Assembly: GCA_944323675.1 (NCBI GenBank)
Contig: CALUTK010000004.1
Location: 1 to 48,762, forward strand
Origin: Candidatus Gastranaerophilales bacterium
GTDB taxonomy: Bacteria > Cyanobacteriota > Vampirovibrionia > Gastranaerophilales > Gastranaerophilaceae
Direction: 5' to 3'
Length of the DNA stretch: 48,762 nt
How positions within the stretch are numbered: position 1 is the first letter of the stretch; the number at the start of each line of letters is the position of its first letter. The position numbers and the translations under genes are program-made. The notes beneath the pieces were generated by a model that was not told the origin of the DNA, did not search any database, and saw nothing but the letters and a program-made list of their open reading frames with translations. Positions 39,684-46,281 of this stretch are shown here, in pieces.

Positions 39684-40286
39684 TTACCAGTTCTCGGAGC
39701 CATATTTTTTGTAGATTTCAATAGTGTGCTTTATTTTATTTTCGACCGATTCAATTTTTTTAAGGTTCTCTAAATCTTTTGTTTTGGTTTTGAGAAGCTG
39801 GAGTTCAAGATAATCTTCTTTTGCTTTTCTGACTTTTTGCTTGGTTTCTTCACGCTTTAAGAATAACCATGCCTCAAACCCGCAGCCCGGAGGTACTATA
39901 GCCCAAGGAGTTGATGGACAATGGCGGCAGAGAGCAGGACGTTCTTCATAAATAGGGCAGGTATTATCGTCAAGCAGATACTTACAGCCGTAAAACGTGA
40001 CTTTATTTATATCGAAATCATCTGCCTCAGACATCTTTTCTATCACATTATCTACAAGTTCCCTATCAACCTCGCGGGCAGCTTCAATAGAAGGATAAGG
40101 AACAAAAATCTTCAAAAAATCCTTTGCCCCTTCATCCCCTTCGGCTTCAAGGCGTTTTAATTCCTCATAAGGCTTCGGTGTTGTAACAACACGGCAGCAC
40201 CTTCCGCACATGTGACACAAATATTGAGGACGCTTATTTAAATAATTATCTTCATAACTACCCATATTTTTATTATAGTGCGGCAT
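39684..40286 (-). CDS. YkgJ-type Cys-cluster (zinc/iron-chelating) protein A
   Basis: A 200-aa protein with the CHMCGRCCRV motif (CxxCxxCC) followed by CKYL...CPIYEERPALCRHCPSTPW and a CGFEAW motif. This is the YkgJ/UPF0153 family, which binds a metal cluster; its role is unknown. It is a clear paralogue of the gene at 45598-46281, matching in FLKIFVPYPS..AAREV and the later Cys segment. No ribosome binding site is evident at either candidate ATG (40286, or the next at 40265). Confidence 0.85.
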   Translation of the reverse strand: MPHYNKNMGSYEDNYLNKRPQYLCHMCGRCCRVVTTPKPYEELKRLEAEGDEGAKDFLKIFVPYPSIEAAREVDRELVDNVIEKMSEADDFDINKVTFYGCKYLLDDNTCPIYEERPALCRHCPSTPWAIVPPGCGFEAWLFLKREETKQKVRKAKEDYLELQLLKTKTKDLENLKKIESVENKIKHTIEIYKKYGSENW

Positions 40287-41233: not shown

Positions 41234-41731
41234 ATGGGATTTTCAATAACAAAAATAGCATCAAATATAAAAAACAACTACGGCAAATACCTTGCAAAAA
41301 CAGCAGGGGCAGCCGCCGTCGGACTTGTTGCTTATGATGCGCATATTATCGGAAAACTAAATGCCGACACCTACTCGCAAAGCCGCGAAGCAGACAGAAC
41401 CGCAACCCTTGCGACAAATACGCTTTACCTCACGGATCCGAGTACAATTCAGCAAAAAGTTAAAAAGAAATTATTCAATTTTGAACTGGAAAACAATTTC
41501 TTCAATTTCTTTAATTCAGCAATCGGCTACTTTAGCGGACTCGGTGAAATGCTTGTCTCAGGAGTGGTTCCGCTTGGTTTAGGGTTAACAGCACTCCTTG
41601 CAAGCCCTAAAAAACACGGAAAAATCTGTAAAGGCGCAGGAATTGGTTTATTAATCTACGGCGGCTTTAAATTCATCCGCGACATCTTAGGCTTCGGCAG
41701 CCCGAACCCGCTCAATTCAAGGTTTAAATAG
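41234..41731 (+). CDS. Membrane protein, unrecognised
   Basis: A 165-aa protein with hydrophobic segments at about residues 22-40 (AKTAGAAAVGLVAYDAHII), 90-120 (AIGYFSGLGEMLVSGVVPLGLGLTALL) and 133-152 (GAGIGLLIYGGFKFIRDILG). Between them is a polar loop containing SQSREADRTATLATNTLYL. It follows the Gln/Pro-rich gene by seven bases. Its stop overlaps the convergent trmD stop region by eight bases, so no terminator separates them. Confidence 0.75.
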   Translation: MGFSITKIASNIKNNYGKYLAKTAGAAAVGLVAYDAHIIGKLNADTYSQSREADRTATLATNTLYLTDPSTIQQKVKKKLFNFELENNFFNFFNSAIGYFSGLGEMLVSGVVPLGLGLTALLASPKKHGKICKGAGIGLLIYGGFKFIRDILGFGSPNPLNSRFK

Positions 41732-42416
41732 ATTTTTCAGAATACTTTGCGTATAAATCAGGGCGTTTTTTCTTTGTCCGCTCTATTGATTGCTGCAGCC
41801 TAAATTCCGCAATTTCTTTATGATTACCGTTCAAGAGGACTTCCGGAACCTTCAATCCTCTGTATTCACGCGGTTTTGTGTAATGCGGGTATTCCAAAAG
41901 TCCGTTAGAAAAACTATCCTCGTCAGCGGATTCAATCTTTCCGAGGGTTCCTTCAACCTTGCGGCTCACTGCGTCAATAAGACAAAGTGCCGGAAGTTCT
42001 CCGCCGGTCAGGACAAAATCCCCGATAGAAATTTCTTTCGGCTTTATAATATCGCGTATTCTCTCATCAAAACCCTCATAATGACCGCACATCAGAACAA
42101 TTTGTTCATAACTCGCAAGTTCATTAACAAGCCCGTCATTTAAAGGTTCACCCTGAGGCGAAAGCATTACTGTAATTGAATTCTCGCTTCTTCCTATACT
42201 TTCATACGCATCAACGTAAGGCTGCGCCATCAACACCATTCCTGCACCGCCGCCATAGGGCGTATCATCAACTTTTTTGTGTTTATCAAGAGTGAAATCC
42301 CGCGGGTTAATTGTATTCACTTTTATCACGCCGGCTTCCGAAGCACGCTTCATTATACTGAAACAGCAGTAACTCTCTATCATTTCAGGAAAAAGCGTCA
42401 TCACATCGAAAATCAT
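41724..42416 (-). CDS. trmD: tRNA (guanine-37-N1)-methyltransferase
   Basis: Methylates G37 of tRNAs for Leu, Pro and Arg, which prevents frameshifting. The protein is 230 aa with the trefoil-knot signatures GGGAGMVLMAQP, MCGHYEGFDERI and IGDFVLTGGELPALCLIDA. The start overlaps the rimM stop by four bases (ATGA). It is last in the operon led by the zinc-ribbon repeat protein. Confidence 0.97.
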   Translation of the reverse strand: MIFDVMTLFPEMIESYCCFSIMKRASEAGVIKVNTINPRDFTLDKHKKVDDTPYGGGAGMVLMAQPYVDAYESIGRSENSITVMLSPQGEPLNDGLVNELASYEQIVLMCGHYEGFDERIRDIIKPKEISIGDFVLTGGELPALCLIDAVSRKVEGTLGKIESADEDSFSNGLLEYPHYTKPREYRGLKVPEVLLNGNHKEIAEFRLQQSIERTKKKRPDLYAKYSEKSI

Positions 42417-42925
42417 TCCAGAAGCCCTTCCAGATTATTAATTACTACTTTTTTATCTTTAATGCTTACACTTACAACAATTGCTTTCACAAAAGGCACA
42501 AGGCATATTTTTTTTGAATTTGTCTTAACAGAAAGCAGGTCGTTCGCGCCGTTATTAGAGACTCCGACGACGAATCCCAGTTTTTTATCATCAGTATCAA
42601 AAACAGAAAGTCCTACAAGTTCATCAATCAAAAATTCGTCTTCTTCAAGCTTTTCGCGAATTGTATCTTCTTCTACAAAAAGAACACATCCTTTATATTC
42701 CATAATTTCGTTTACTGAATCAATTCCCTCAAATTTCATCAAGGCAAAATTTTTATGCAAACGGGCTTGCGTAAGATTCAGCGGCAGGTATTCATTATTT
42801 TTCTGAACAAAGACTTTATCTAAAGACAGAATAAAATCTTCCTGACCTTTAGAGAAACCTACTCTTGCTTCCCCTTTAATTCCGTGGAAGTTCAATATTT
42901 TACCGACTGAAATGAACTTACTCAT
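42413..42925 (-). CDS. rimM: 16S rRNA processing protein RimM
   Basis: Assists 30S head assembly together with S19. The protein is 170 aa, with the N-terminal FISVGKILNFHGIKGEARV barrel and a C-terminal PRC-type barrel (DELVGLSVFDTDDKKLGFVVGVSNNGANDLLSV). It overlaps the upstream gene by eight bases and trmD by four, a tightly coupled unit. The order rimM-trmD is conserved; rpsP and a KH-domain gene, common upstream partners, are replaced here by the repeat protein. Confidence 0.96.
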   Translation of the reverse strand: MSKFISVGKILNFHGIKGEARVGFSKGQEDFILSLDKVFVQKNNEYLPLNLTQARLHKNFALMKFEGIDSVNEIMEYKGCVLFVEEDTIREKLEEDEFLIDELVGLSVFDTDDKKLGFVVGVSNNGANDLLSVKTNSKKICLVPFVKAIVVSVSIKDKKVVINNLEGLLE

Positions 42926-44006
42926 TTTCTTCTGCCGGTTCTTCGACTTTCTTAGGTTTTCTGCCGCGTTTTGGTTTTTCTTCCGCCGGAGTTTCAGCAG
43001 CTGGTGCCGACTCTGACGCAGCTTCTACGGTTTCAGCTTTTGCTTCTTTATTCTGGTTTTTGAATTCTTCAGGACAGTCTTCTCTTTCCTGATTCCATCG
43101 CTGCAGACCCATTTGAGAACGGATTAAGCCGATACCTACGTGAACTCTCCATTCATCCATTTTCAACTGTGCCGCAATAATCTTGTGGCAGCCGATTGGC
43201 GGCAGCGGTAATAATGGCTCATAAAGATTTTTAATTGCAAAAAGCTGATCCGGTGAAATTGCAAGTTTGCGTTTAGGGAACGGCAATTTCGGAAGCATTA
43301 ATTTTTGTCTTACAAGATTAATGCCGAAAAATACTTTTCTTGGTTCAAGACCGATTTTTTCACCGATAACTTCGTGCGCGTCAGGATTTGGGAGCGGAAG
43401 CATCTGTTTATAGAGCATTTCAATCTGTTCTAATTGCTCCTTGCTTATAAGAAGCTGTTTAGGTGCTTTATTTCTTACCGGACGTTTATTCTTAAATCCG
43501 CCTTTATTAAACCCGCCCTGCTGCGGACGTCTGCTGTTATTAAATCCAGAACGATTGTAGCCGCCCTGCTGAGGTCTGTTCTGGTTATAGCCGCCTCTGT
43601 TATAACCCTGATTATCGCGTCTGTAGCCGCCCTGTTGAGGCCTATTCTGGTTATAGCCGCCTCTGTTATAACCTTGATTATCGCGTCTATAGCCGCCCTG
43701 TTGAGGTCTATTCTGATTATAACTGTTTCTGTAGCCTTGATTATCACGCCTATAACCGCCTTGCTGAGGCCTGCCTTCGCCTGCACTGTAGCTGCTATAG
43801 AACTTAGGTTGTTCAGTTTCCGTACTATATGAAGCCTGCGGAGCATCCGTAGAATATGACTGCGGAGCCGGTGTTTCTGACGGCGCATCTGCCGACGGGT
43901 TAATCATCATTTTCTTATCAGGGTACAAGCAATCGGGACAAATAACTCTTTTGGGGTTCTTTGTTTCAAATTCACGACCGCATTTGACGCACTTGTTAAC
44001 ATACAT
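42918..44006 (-). CDS. Zinc-ribbon protein with RPQQGGY tandem repeats and duplicated helical domain
   Basis: A 362-aa protein of unusual architecture. Residues 6-26 form a zinc ribbon (Cys6, Cys9, Cys23, Cys26). A Ser/Pro-rich linker follows (about 35-78), then about five imperfect repeats of 21-22 residues (79-175) of the form RPQQGGYRRDNQGYNRGGYNQN. Residues 185-244 and 248-303 are two similar helical units (each I-S-x-[DE]-Q-L, then L-P-L-P, then a helix ending LIRQ-like). The tail is Ala/Glu-rich with an AT-hook-like KPKRGRKPKK. It heads the rimM-trmD operon, overlapping rimM by eight bases. RNA binding is inference from Arg/Gly/Gln/Tyr content and context; no family is recognised. Confidence 0.88.
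   Translation of the reverse strand: MYVNKCVKCGREFETKNPKRVICPDCLYPDKKMMINPSADAPSETPAPQSYSTDAPQASYSTETEQPKFYSSYSAGEGRPQQGGYRRDNQGYRNSYNQNRPQQGGYRRDNQGYNRGGYNQNRPQQGGYRRDNQGYNRGGYNQNRPQQGGYNRSGFNNSRRPQQGGFNKGGFKNKRPVRNKAPKQLLISKEQLEQIEMLYKQMLPLPNPDAHEVIGEKIGLEPRKVFFGINLVRQKLMLPKLPFPKRKLAISPDQLFAIKNLYEPLLPLPPIGCHKIIAAQLKMDEWRVHVGIGLIRSQMGLQRWNQEREDCPEEFKNQNKEAKAETVEAASESAPAAETPAEEKPKRGRKPKKVEEPAEENE
43482..43772 (-). repeat. 66-base coding tandem repeat (RPQQGGY units)
   Basis: About five imperfect units of 63-66 bases encode the RPQQGGYRRDNQGYNRGGYNQN-type repeat. Units two and three are identical at protein level. The DNA repetition can cause unit-number variation among strains. Confidence 0.85.
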
Positions 44007-44118
44007 AATTTAAAAGCCTCTTAATTAAAAAATCATAAACATTAAAATATCAACTAGTTAAAAATTAATTACTCCTCGGTAATCCAAAAATTCAATCTAC
44101 AATATACTTAATAATCTT

Positions 44119-44147
44119 ATTATAACATAGAATGTAAATATTATCAA
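44119..44147 (-). promoter_or_regulatory. Strong sigma-70-type promoter for the repeat-protein-rimM-trmD operon
   Basis: Read on the minus strand, TTGATA and TATAAT are 17 bases apart, a near-consensus match. The start codon is about 105 bases downstream, leaving a long AU-rich 5' leader. Confidence 0.75.
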
Positions 44148-44162
44148 GTGTCTGCCGAATTA

Positions 44163-44600
44163 TTATTTTTCGACCATAAAAGTGACAGGCCCGTCATTTA
44201 TCAGGGAAACATCCATCATTGCGCGGAATTTGCCTGTTTTTACAACGAAATTCATAGCCTGTAATTTGGTTACAAAATCTTCATATAATTCGGCTGCTCT
44301 CTCCGAAGGCGCTGCGTTATCAAAACTCGGACGGGTTCCTTTTTTGCAGTCTCCGCAAAGCGTAAACTGTGAAACTACAAGGATTTCACCATTGACATCC
44401 TTTATGGAAAGGTTCATTTTTTCATTTTCATCCTCAAAAATCCGGAGCGACGAGATTTTCTGTGAAAGTTTTTCGGAATTTTCTTCTGTATCCGATTTTT
44501 CCACTCCCAGAAATATAAGAATTCCATGCCCGATTTTTGAATACAATTCACCGTCAATTGTGACAGACGCCTCTTTAACTCTTTGTATCAGTGCTTTCAT
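44163..44600 (-). CDS. dtd: D-aminoacyl-tRNA deacylase
   Basis: Hydrolyses D-amino acids (and mischarged glycine or alanine) from tRNA. The protein is 145 aa, the normal length, with the cross-subunit motifs SQFTL and NDGPVT (family norm N-x-GPVT) and the N-terminus MKALIQRVKEASVTIDGE. Its start overlaps rlmN by four bases. Together with rlmN and a YkgJ-type gene it forms a three-gene unit. Confidence 0.96.
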   Translation of the reverse strand: MKALIQRVKEASVTIDGELYSKIGHGILIFLGVEKSDTEENSEKLSQKISSLRIFEDENEKMNLSIKDVNGEILVVSQFTLCGDCKKGTRPSFDNAAPSERAAELYEDFVTKLQAMNFVVKTGKFRAMMDVSLINDGPVTFMVEK

Positions 44601-45619
44601 TGTTTAGCCTTTCCGCTTAATTGTCCGCAGGCAGCGTCAATGTCAGTCCCGCGCTCAAGTCTTACCGTTACCTTCTTCCCTGAATGTTCCAGCAGATATT
44701 TAAACTTCATTATTGAATTGTTTGAAGGTCTTTGATAATCGTTATCCGCTGTCGGGTTATACGGAATTAAATTTACGTTGCATTTTATGTCATGCAGGTA
44801 ATTCGCAAGTTCTTTGGCGCTTTCTGTTGTATCGTTTATATCTTTTATTAGAAGATATTCAATAGTAATCCTTCTACCTGTTTTTTCAACATAGTTTTTC
44901 AATGCTGCATGCAGGCTTTTCATATCGTATTTATCTTCAATTTTCATTAATTTTGAACGAATGGCATGATTTGGGGCGTGAAGCGAGATTGCAAGAGTTG
45001 ACTGCATATCAAGTTCCGCAAGCTTATTAATCTGCGGAATTATGCCGCTTGTGGAAACTGTAAGGCGTCTTGCGCCGATTTGAAAGTTCTCGTTAAATAT
45101 TTCCATAGCTTTTAAGACGTTATCAAGATTTAAAAGCGGCTCGCCCTGTCCCATAAATACGACATTAGTAACTTTCAAACCTGTATCCCTCTGGATTGTC
45201 AAAACCTGTTCTATAATCTCCTTATAAGAAAGATTTCTTATAAAACCGCGCTTTCCGGTCGCACAAAAAGAACAATTCACTGCGCACCCGACCTGCGAAC
45301 TTACGCATGCTGTTAAATTTGCTCGGTTGTCAAAACGCATCAGAACAGTTTCAACACACTCTCCGTCAGGGTATTCCAGAAGATATTTAATAGTCCCGTC
45401 TGAACTTACCTGTTTAACCTTTATTTTTATATCGGAAACTATCGCAATCTTTTTCAGTTCCTCGCGAAATTTTACAGATAAATCCGTCATCTCATCAATT
45501 GTTTTTACTGATTTTAAGTAAATCCAGTTATGAATTTGCCTTGCACGGAACTTTGACGCGTGCAATTCGTCCGTTATTTTTTCTATTTCGGCTAAAGTTA
45601 ATCCTGAAAGTATTTGCAT
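44597..45619 (-). CDS. rlmN: Dual-specificity RNA methyltransferase RlmN (radical SAM)
   Basis: Adds C2-methyl to A2503 of 23S rRNA and A37 of some tRNAs. The protein is 340 aa. The radical-SAM triad is Cys112, Cys116, Cys119 (CAVNCSFC). Cys105 sits seven residues ahead, as in the E. coli enzyme's catalytic Cys, and a C-terminal Cys is in DIDAACGQLSG. The start overlaps the upstream YkgJ-type gene by 22 bases. Confidence 0.96.
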   Translation of the reverse strand: MQILSGLTLAEIEKITDELHASKFRARQIHNWIYLKSVKTIDEMTDLSVKFREELKKIAIVSDIKIKVKQVSSDGTIKYLLEYPDGECVETVLMRFDNRANLTACVSSQVGCAVNCSFCATGKRGFIRNLSYKEIIEQVLTIQRDTGLKVTNVVFMGQGEPLLNLDNVLKAMEIFNENFQIGARRLTVSTSGIIPQINKLAELDMQSTLAISLHAPNHAIRSKLMKIEDKYDMKSLHAALKNYVEKTGRRITIEYLLIKDINDTTESAKELANYLHDIKCNVNLIPYNPTADNDYQRPSNNSIMKFKYLLEHSGKKVTVRLERGTDIDAACGQLSGKAKQ

Positions 45620-46281
45620 ATATTTTCCTTATAGTATTGAATAATTTCCAGCATTGAATGGAGCATTAAGGTAACAGGTTCAATTTCTTCTTTCCACTTT
45701 TTATACCCGCATGAATCCGGCAGTATACTCAACGGATTATCAGGGAAATCCCGGCAGATTTGAGGTCTGTTTTCATAATCCGAACACCTGTTATCCTTTG
45801 TTAATTTCGGACAATGATAAAAATATACATCGTCTTCCTTGTTATCCTCAAGCATCTGAATATATTCAGGGTAAACCCTGCGCGCTTCTTCCTTTGATTC
45901 ATACGGTATAAAAATGCTCATAAACTGTTTTGCAAAATTATCGCCGTTTTCAGCCTTCTGTTTTAATTCTTCAGGAGAAAATTCACTGCAAGCAAGGTTA
46001 CAGCAGGTGGCACAGCCGCTGCATTTGAAAGTTTCCCGATAAGCAAGCACTTCCTGAAATTTCCGGTAAATTTCCTTCGATATATCATTTTCAAACATAT
46101 CCAGAACTGCAAGTTGCCACTTTCTGCCTTCAGACCCTTTTGGAAATTCATCAAATATGTCCCCCTCAACCGTTTGAGGCTTAATTTCATCCACACGGCT
46201 TTGAATTTCTTCCACTGTTTTAGAAAAAATCTCACGGTACTCTTTTCGTAAATTTTCCACTGATGAATGTAGTTTGCTCAT
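45598..46281 (-). CDS. YkgJ-type Cys-cluster protein B
   Basis: A 227-aa protein with a helical N-terminal extension (about residues 1-80), the CSGCATCCNLACSEFS motif, and YHCPKL...CSDYENRPQICRDFPDNP. It is a paralogue of the gene at 39684-40286: the shared segment starts FMSIFIPYES.EEARR and continues into the second Cys group and a CGYKKW motif. It leads the rlmN-dtd operon. Its cluster may be an iron-sulfur or zinc site; the role is unknown. No ribosome binding site is evident. Confidence 0.85.
   Translation of the reverse strand: MSKLHSSVENLRKEYREIFSKTVEEIQSRVDEIKPQTVEGDIFDEFPKGSEGRKWQLAVLDMFENDISKEIYRKFQEVLAYRETFKCSGCATCCNLACSEFSPEELKQKAENGDNFAKQFMSIFIPYESKEEARRVYPEYIQMLEDNKEDDVYFYHCPKLTKDNRCSDYENRPQICRDFPDNPLSILPDSCGYKKWKEEIEPVTLMLHSMLEIIQYYKENICKYFQD

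Follow-up and report, generated by a model that had tools for sequence, protein, structure and literature searches.

We describe a 362-aa protein, encoded by an open frame at 42918..44006 on the minus strand of a 48,762-nucleotide stretch of Gastranaerophilales DNA (the window), in which a zinc finger, a disordered repeat region, two HTH units, a helix, and a charged tail follow one another in that order. As far as our searches show, it belongs to an undescribed, clade-defining family that puts a known fold type into an unusual combination. The protein probably acts as a conserved organiser that binds DNA (or RNA). Judging from its sequence and the predicted structure, we consider it an evenly balanced question whether it is a single-copy, lineage-specific DNA-binding protein that serves as a nucleoid organiser or global regulator with a condensate-prone linker. 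DNA is the more likely main ligand, with a chance that we put near even, and RNA is a tentative alternative. An earlier note on this DNA had the coordinates, strand, and length of the gene right, and it took the place of the gene ahead of rimM and trmD as a sign of a role in ribosome maturation. The operon position turned out to be a misleading clue to function.

Distribution and conservation

We found the gene in 277/286 genomes of the Gastranaerophilales (46/50 genera), nearly always as a single copy and with 75-99% identity within the order in the listed matches. The gene also occurs in three other families of the class (f9, f14, and f15; f1 is the window's own family and f2-f7 are the other families of the order), at 57-69% identity. 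Neither the other Cyanobacteria sampled nor families f8 and f10-f13 yielded a match, so the suggestion that the protein is lineage-specific is borne out by its distribution. In three f1 genomes without the gene, rimM was either cut at a contig end or missing, which looks like assembly gaps, and we rejected gene loss in this family. A scan of one genome per species across 84,980 species gave 427 loci, and the titles and identities of the best 80 of these fit Gastranaerophilales. We also rejected a viral origin, as there was no relative among 2.9 million viral contigs.

All families examined share the same architecture: a finger of the form MYxNxCxKCGxEFETKNPKRVICPxCLYPD, a low-complexity region of either the GGY/RPQ or the GYGPPR type, the pair of HTH units, and a charged tail. 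Over 80 loci, which were picked by HTH similarity so that the contrast with the neighbours is somewhat flattered, the median identity was 97% for the finger and 94% for the HTH pair, compared with 71% for rimM, 80% for trmD, 73% for dtd (63 loci), and 88% for rlmN (39 loci).

Architecture of the protein

The zinc finger spans residues 1-33 (MYVNKCVKCGREFETKNPKRVICPDCLYPDKKM; 43908..44006, minus strand). The four-Cys ribbon that had been recognized by eye is present (C6, C9, C23, and C26; AF2 pLDDT about 92), and in an alignment of 12 sequences all four cysteines are invariant, with the spacing CxxC-x13-CxxC of a zinc ribbon. AF2 folds the segment as a compact hairpin with a short helix, residues 1-31 are also confident in the full-length model (pLDDT about 92), and metal binding is predicted. 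Pfam zinc-ribbon families matched the finger at sub-threshold scores only, with many unrelated zinc ribbons equally weak.

The region that follows, residues 34-182 (43461..43907, minus strand), is rich in Gly, Arg, Asn, Gln, and Tyr, and the composition of its last 104 residues (79-182) is G20 R18 N18 Q16 Y10. The full-length AF2 model is disordered (pLDDT below 50) over residues 34-176 and again over 333-362, so that a condensate-type disordered region, as the earlier note supposed, is what the prediction gives. Within the region lies a tandem repeat of 66 bp (22 residues; 43558..43769, minus strand) in 3.3 copies, with a TRF score of 291 and 86% matches; the previous count of about five repeats includes degenerate copies.

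HTH unit 1 covers residues 184-240 (43287..43457, minus strand), with predicted helices at 189-202, 210-218, and 222-235, and HTH unit 2 covers residues 244-303 (43098..43277, minus strand), with a basic arm PKRKLA and predicted helices at 252-265, 273-281, and 285-299. Unit 2 is an internal repeat of unit 1: the two align without gaps along 57 residues (BLOSUM62 score 97, whereas 500 shuffles averaged 24.5 and reached at most 50), which agrees with the view that they are two copies of one helical unit with an LPLP motif. On a 30-sequence alignment of the pair, AF2 gave three main helices per unit at a mean pLDDT of 84. In the full-length model an extra helix (313-332) comes after the units. 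The basic tail KPKRGRKPKK (residues 344-353; 42948..42977, minus strand), previously called AT-hook-like, is indeed present in the window protein. It varies between families, reading RGRK in f1 and RGRPKK in f14 and lacking a GRK/GRP core in f6 and f7, and we rejected an AT-hook proper because the conserved R-G-R-P core occurs in f14 only.

Foldseek placed DNA-bound double homeodomains of DUX4 first for both models (E 0.069 for the pair and 0.017 for the full length); behind them came tandem engrailed homeodomains, POU domains, and 2lvs, a protein that binds CRISPR repeats. All of these matches are weak, and since none has an E below 0.001, they are a lead to the fold and no proof of homology. 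VIA-align scored single homeodomains and winged HTHs alike, with Z of 4.9-5.6 over 46-63 residues, where values below 6 are common among small helical domains. Given that winged-HTH domains (SarX, biotin protein ligase) were level with homeodomains, structure alone leaves the class within HTH folds undecided. SelB RNA-binding winged helices (1wsu, 2pjp) and ribosomal subunits were also among the weak structural matches.

At the sequence level, the Pfam Homeodomain model (PF00046) matched 24/30 members (E up to 1, best E 1.7e-6) and was the only Pfam family matched by most of these 30, and four reversed and four shuffled control sequences had no Pfam match. Unit 1 of the window protein matched it with E 1e-3 alone and 1e-4 in the pair, and the protein scored 19.0 bits as a whole and 22.6 bits for the HTH pair alone, with a gathering cut-off of 22.9 bits. 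A genome-scale search with PF00046 at E 0.01 gave no match, and its controls were likewise without a match, which makes this search uninformative on absence. A sequence profile search of the PDB returned homeobox proteins only, with E of 0.14 and 1.1.

In homeodomains, Arg53 contacts phosphate, Asn51 contacts a base, and Trp48 is part of the core. Under homeodomain numbering, Arg53 is present in 60/60 units, Trp48 and Asn51 are present in 0/60, and position 49 is Ile or Met, so the helix 3 signature (W48, F49, N51, R53) is not found in its homeodomain form. The model does show a three-helix HTH with basic N-terminal arms (PKRKLA, PKQLL). Because W48 and N51 never occur, we call the units homeodomain-like HTHs and do not file them as homeodomains. 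In the literature we found no paper on a homeodomain with Melainabacteria, on a bacterial homeodomain, or on a tandem homeodomain with a zinc ribbon.

The earlier note considered that the helical pair may be a new ribosome- or RNA-binding module. The predicted three-helix HTH fold, with its best (weak) matches to DNA-binding homeodomains, argues against this, and the Pfam scan of the protein gave no match to a KH domain.

Genomic setting and the 5' leader

The gene order in the window is rlmN - dtd - gene - rimM - trmD, with identities assigned by Pfam. Upstream lies dtd (44163..44600, minus strand; Tyr_Deacylase), and downstream lie rimM (42413..42925, minus strand; RimM, 2.9e-17) and trmD (41724..42416, minus strand; tRNA_m1G_MT, 5.6e-66). 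The gene overlaps rimM by eight bases (ATGAGTAA), as previously noted, and the two are likely co-transcribed. We observed two Cys-rich proteins (200 and 227 aa; 39684-40286 and 45598-46281) that flank the rlmN-trmD cluster on the same strand and resemble each other (one cluster, c48).

In the window's own family, rimM and trmD lie 3' of the gene in 41/41 loci. There is no such linkage in the loci of the nine other families (f2-f7, f9, f14, and f15), a few of which end soon after the gene, and no rimM or trmD homologues occur in 20 neighbourhoods of 13-20 kb. Outside f1, rimM is found elsewhere in the genome, and in f3 it comes after ylqD (PF11068, E 2e-25); ylqD adjoins rimM in Bacillus subtilis too (PMC10100781). 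Given that YlqD holds the slot before rimM in f3, the present gene most simply reached this slot only in f1, and the rimM-trmD position is most simply read as a derived rearrangement in that family. It is uninformative about the function of the gene. The earlier note had named two findings that would speak against its reading, and both have in part been made: the helical unit resembles, weakly, DNA-binding domains, and outside f1 the gene is unlinked to rimM.

The gene follows dtd in f7 and in 1/2 f4 loci, and the other neighbourhoods differ. No stable partner operon or common chromosomal neighbour was present across the families examined, which fits a free-standing trans-acting protein. In f7 and f4, a large conserved protein of 650-670 aa is encoded ahead of dtd and the gene (L172, L180, and L178; gene position -2). 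In 8/8 f9/f15 neighbourhoods (L182-L189), the gene and an L-serine dehydratase pair (sdaAB/sdaAA-like) are divergently oriented, and the upstream region that they share could be under bidirectional control.

KhpA and YlqD of Bacillus subtilis are similar to the present protein in their operon slot upstream of rimM-trmD and differ from it in fold, KhpA being a KH domain and YlqD a member of its own family. The earlier note suggested that the protein replaces or adds to KhpA and anticipated that khpA might be absent from the same genome. This is the case, as a search with PF13083 found nothing above its cut-off in the window's genome or in the gene-bearing f1, f2, f3, f4, f6, f7, f9, f14, and f15 genomes examined, and KhpA is present in f8, f13, and 3/4 other cyanobacterial genomes. 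Replacement does not follow, because f10, f11, and f12 are without both KhpA and the gene, and the loss of khpA thus does not track the gain of the gene. Given that the operon link is confined to f1, the ribosome-maturation reading loses its main support. KhpA is undetected over the cut-off in the order and in f9-f12, f14, and f15, possibly a lineage-wide loss.

Upstream of the gene we noted a sigma-70-like promoter site, TTGATA-17-TATAAT with an extended TG before the -10 (44119..44147, minus strand). It matches the consensus at 11/12 positions, in line with the near-consensus promoter seen before, and its TATAAT-like box is kept in f1 relatives. The 5' leader is about 110 nt long (44007..44118, minus strand). 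It contains a GAGGA element at 44073-44077, present in 73/78 distinct f1 leaders, and a conserved 12-mer, AATTAAGAGGCT (44015..44026, minus strand), which overlaps the ribosome-binding site and is present in 76/78, with GAGGA upstream of the 12-mer in f1 leaders (L001-L041, L071-L150). The exact 12-mer occurs in 8/8 f1 genomes and is the sole exact copy in 6/8, and since exact copies are nearly unique per genome we rejected it as a regulon motif. Several f2-f4 leaders have instead a predicted GCAAGG...CCTTGC stem (L049, L050, L051, and L052) and AAGGGGCTAAATT near the start.

A known RNA leader was rejected after a search of Rfam gave no match over any cut-off for the leader, and RNAalifold found no common fold (energy 0) among f1 leaders. 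A leader peptide was also rejected, as the short frames between GAGGA and the start are, by eye, not kept in all species. An ungapped comparison of upstream conservation with other genes was uninformative because of variable spacing and because most control regions fall partly in coding sequence. The simplest reading of the conserved leader is gene-specific expression control, and autoregulation through it is possible.

Proposed function, rivals, and comparison with known systems

In the mechanism that we propose, the two homeodomain-like HTH units and the conserved basic linker between them (LPKLxYPKRKLA) would form the nucleic-acid-binding core, with the pair most likely occupying neighbouring sites on double-stranded DNA. 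Further contacts may come from the zinc finger at the N terminus and, in some families, from the AT-hook-like tail, and the disordered Tyr/Arg/Gly/Gln linker would provide weak multivalent self-association, a property more suited to a nucleoid organiser or global regulator than to a local repressor. The conserved element in the leader of its own mRNA suggests that expression is regulated, possibly by the protein itself. A much bolder form of this proposal is a core bacterial chromatin protein that is built like an animal transcription factor, with homeodomain-like tandem units, a FUS-like Tyr/Arg/Gly domain, and a zinc finger, that is universally kept, autoregulated, and possibly essential, and that uses condensation to organise the nucleoid or transcription of gut Melainabacteria; we regard this form as unlikely.

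Several observations weigh against DNA as the ligand: the structural matches are weak, N51 and W48 are absent, RGG/YGG linkers are at least as typical of RNA binders, and translation genes lie nearby (dtd and, in f1, also rlmN, rimM, and trmD). A rival reading is an RNA-binding, condensate-forming factor for translation or ribosome assembly, whose HTH pair and RGG-like linker would bind rRNA or mRNA and which would partly take over the role of KhpA. Such a factor would suit the RGG/YGG-rich disordered linker, the operon with rimM-trmD and the nearness to dtd and rlmN in f1, the pattern of khpA detection, the conserved 5' leader at the ribosome-binding site, and the weak fold matches to SelB, which binds SECIS RNA, and to ribosomal subunits. 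However, linkage to rimM is restricted to f1, f10-f12 have neither khpA nor the gene, and DNA-binding domains give the best matches in both fold and sequence, and we consider an RNA factor somewhat unlikely.

The module order also resembles that of the archaeal and eukaryotic TFIIB, which has a zinc ribbon, a flexible linker, and tandem helical domains. The finger could accordingly dock on RNA polymerase while the tandem HTHs contact promoter DNA, at very many promoters, and the conservation of finger and HTH pair far above neighbouring enzymes and the finger's weak resemblance in NCBIfam to subunit P of RNA polymerase (E 0.005) would agree with this. That similarity is short and sub-threshold, however, and the finger alone is equally weak against many unrelated zinc ribbons; no TFB was among the structural matches listed, and sigma factors matched weakly. 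A transcription-machinery factor of this kind seems improbable to us. The binding core is so extremely conserved that a fixed target is implied, and the tandem HTHs are weakly similar to 2lvs, which might point to a DNA binder for one dedicated chromosomal site (e.g. the origin, the terminus, or a repeat array), as Cbp1 is for CRISPR repeats. No chromosomal neighbour is common to the families examined, and a single-site binder would not need a long condensate-type linker, so we think this very improbable.

The protein is far more conserved than the adjacent enzymes, yet searches of the other cyanobacterial genomes sampled did not find it, and it belongs to a lineage for which, to our knowledge, there is almost no experimental genetics. 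If it is a DNA-binding condensate former, it would be an independent bacterial version of the design of tandem HTHs with a low-complexity region that has mainly been studied in eukaryotic transcription factors. If it is RNA-binding, it would still be an undescribed clade-defining family with a conserved element in its own leader.

Families f8 and f13, which are without the gene, encode another undescribed protein of 320-420 aa (L151-L153, L155, L157, L158, L160, L168, and L192-L198) with an N-terminal MerR-type HTH (PF13411, E 1e-7), an acidic linker, and a similar zinc finger (LTCQTCGKxFEHxNPRLRDCLDCYRxKRKERR); its C-terminal part is helical and conserved. None of the 16 gene-bearing genomes tested had this protein. 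The two proteins come from the same bacterial class and both have an HTH, long charged linkers, and the finger CxxCGxxFExxNPxxxxCxxC, 39-44% identical over about 27 residues. In the f8/f13 protein, however, the HTH is of the MerR type and N-terminal, the finger is in the middle, and there is no double LPLP unit. By sequence it associates a similar finger type with a DNA-binding domain, and it is only a candidate ortholog.

The archaeal CRISPR-repeat binders Cbp1 and Cbp2 are prokaryotic proteins with duplicated tandem HTH domains, and their Foldseek E values were weak (0.10-0.23). Unlike the present protein they are archaeal, there is no sequence match to them and no CRISPR link at the present gene, and we know of no zinc finger or disordered repeat region in either. 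Cbp1 has three HTHs and Cbp2 has two, and Cbp1 forms chromatin-like structures with Cren7 (PMC10883916).

The DUX4-type double homeodomains (7dw5, 5zfy, and 6e8c) were the top structural matches. The present protein differs from them in being bacterial, in having Gly/Ala and Leu/Ile in place of W48 and N51 in all members, in an extra loop 1 residue (LPLPxP), in its added zinc finger and long disordered region, and in a sequence similarity that lies near or under the Pfam cut-off. It shares with them the tandem arrangement of two three-helix units joined by a short basic linker, the Pfam Homeodomain signal seen in most members, and the conserved Arg53.
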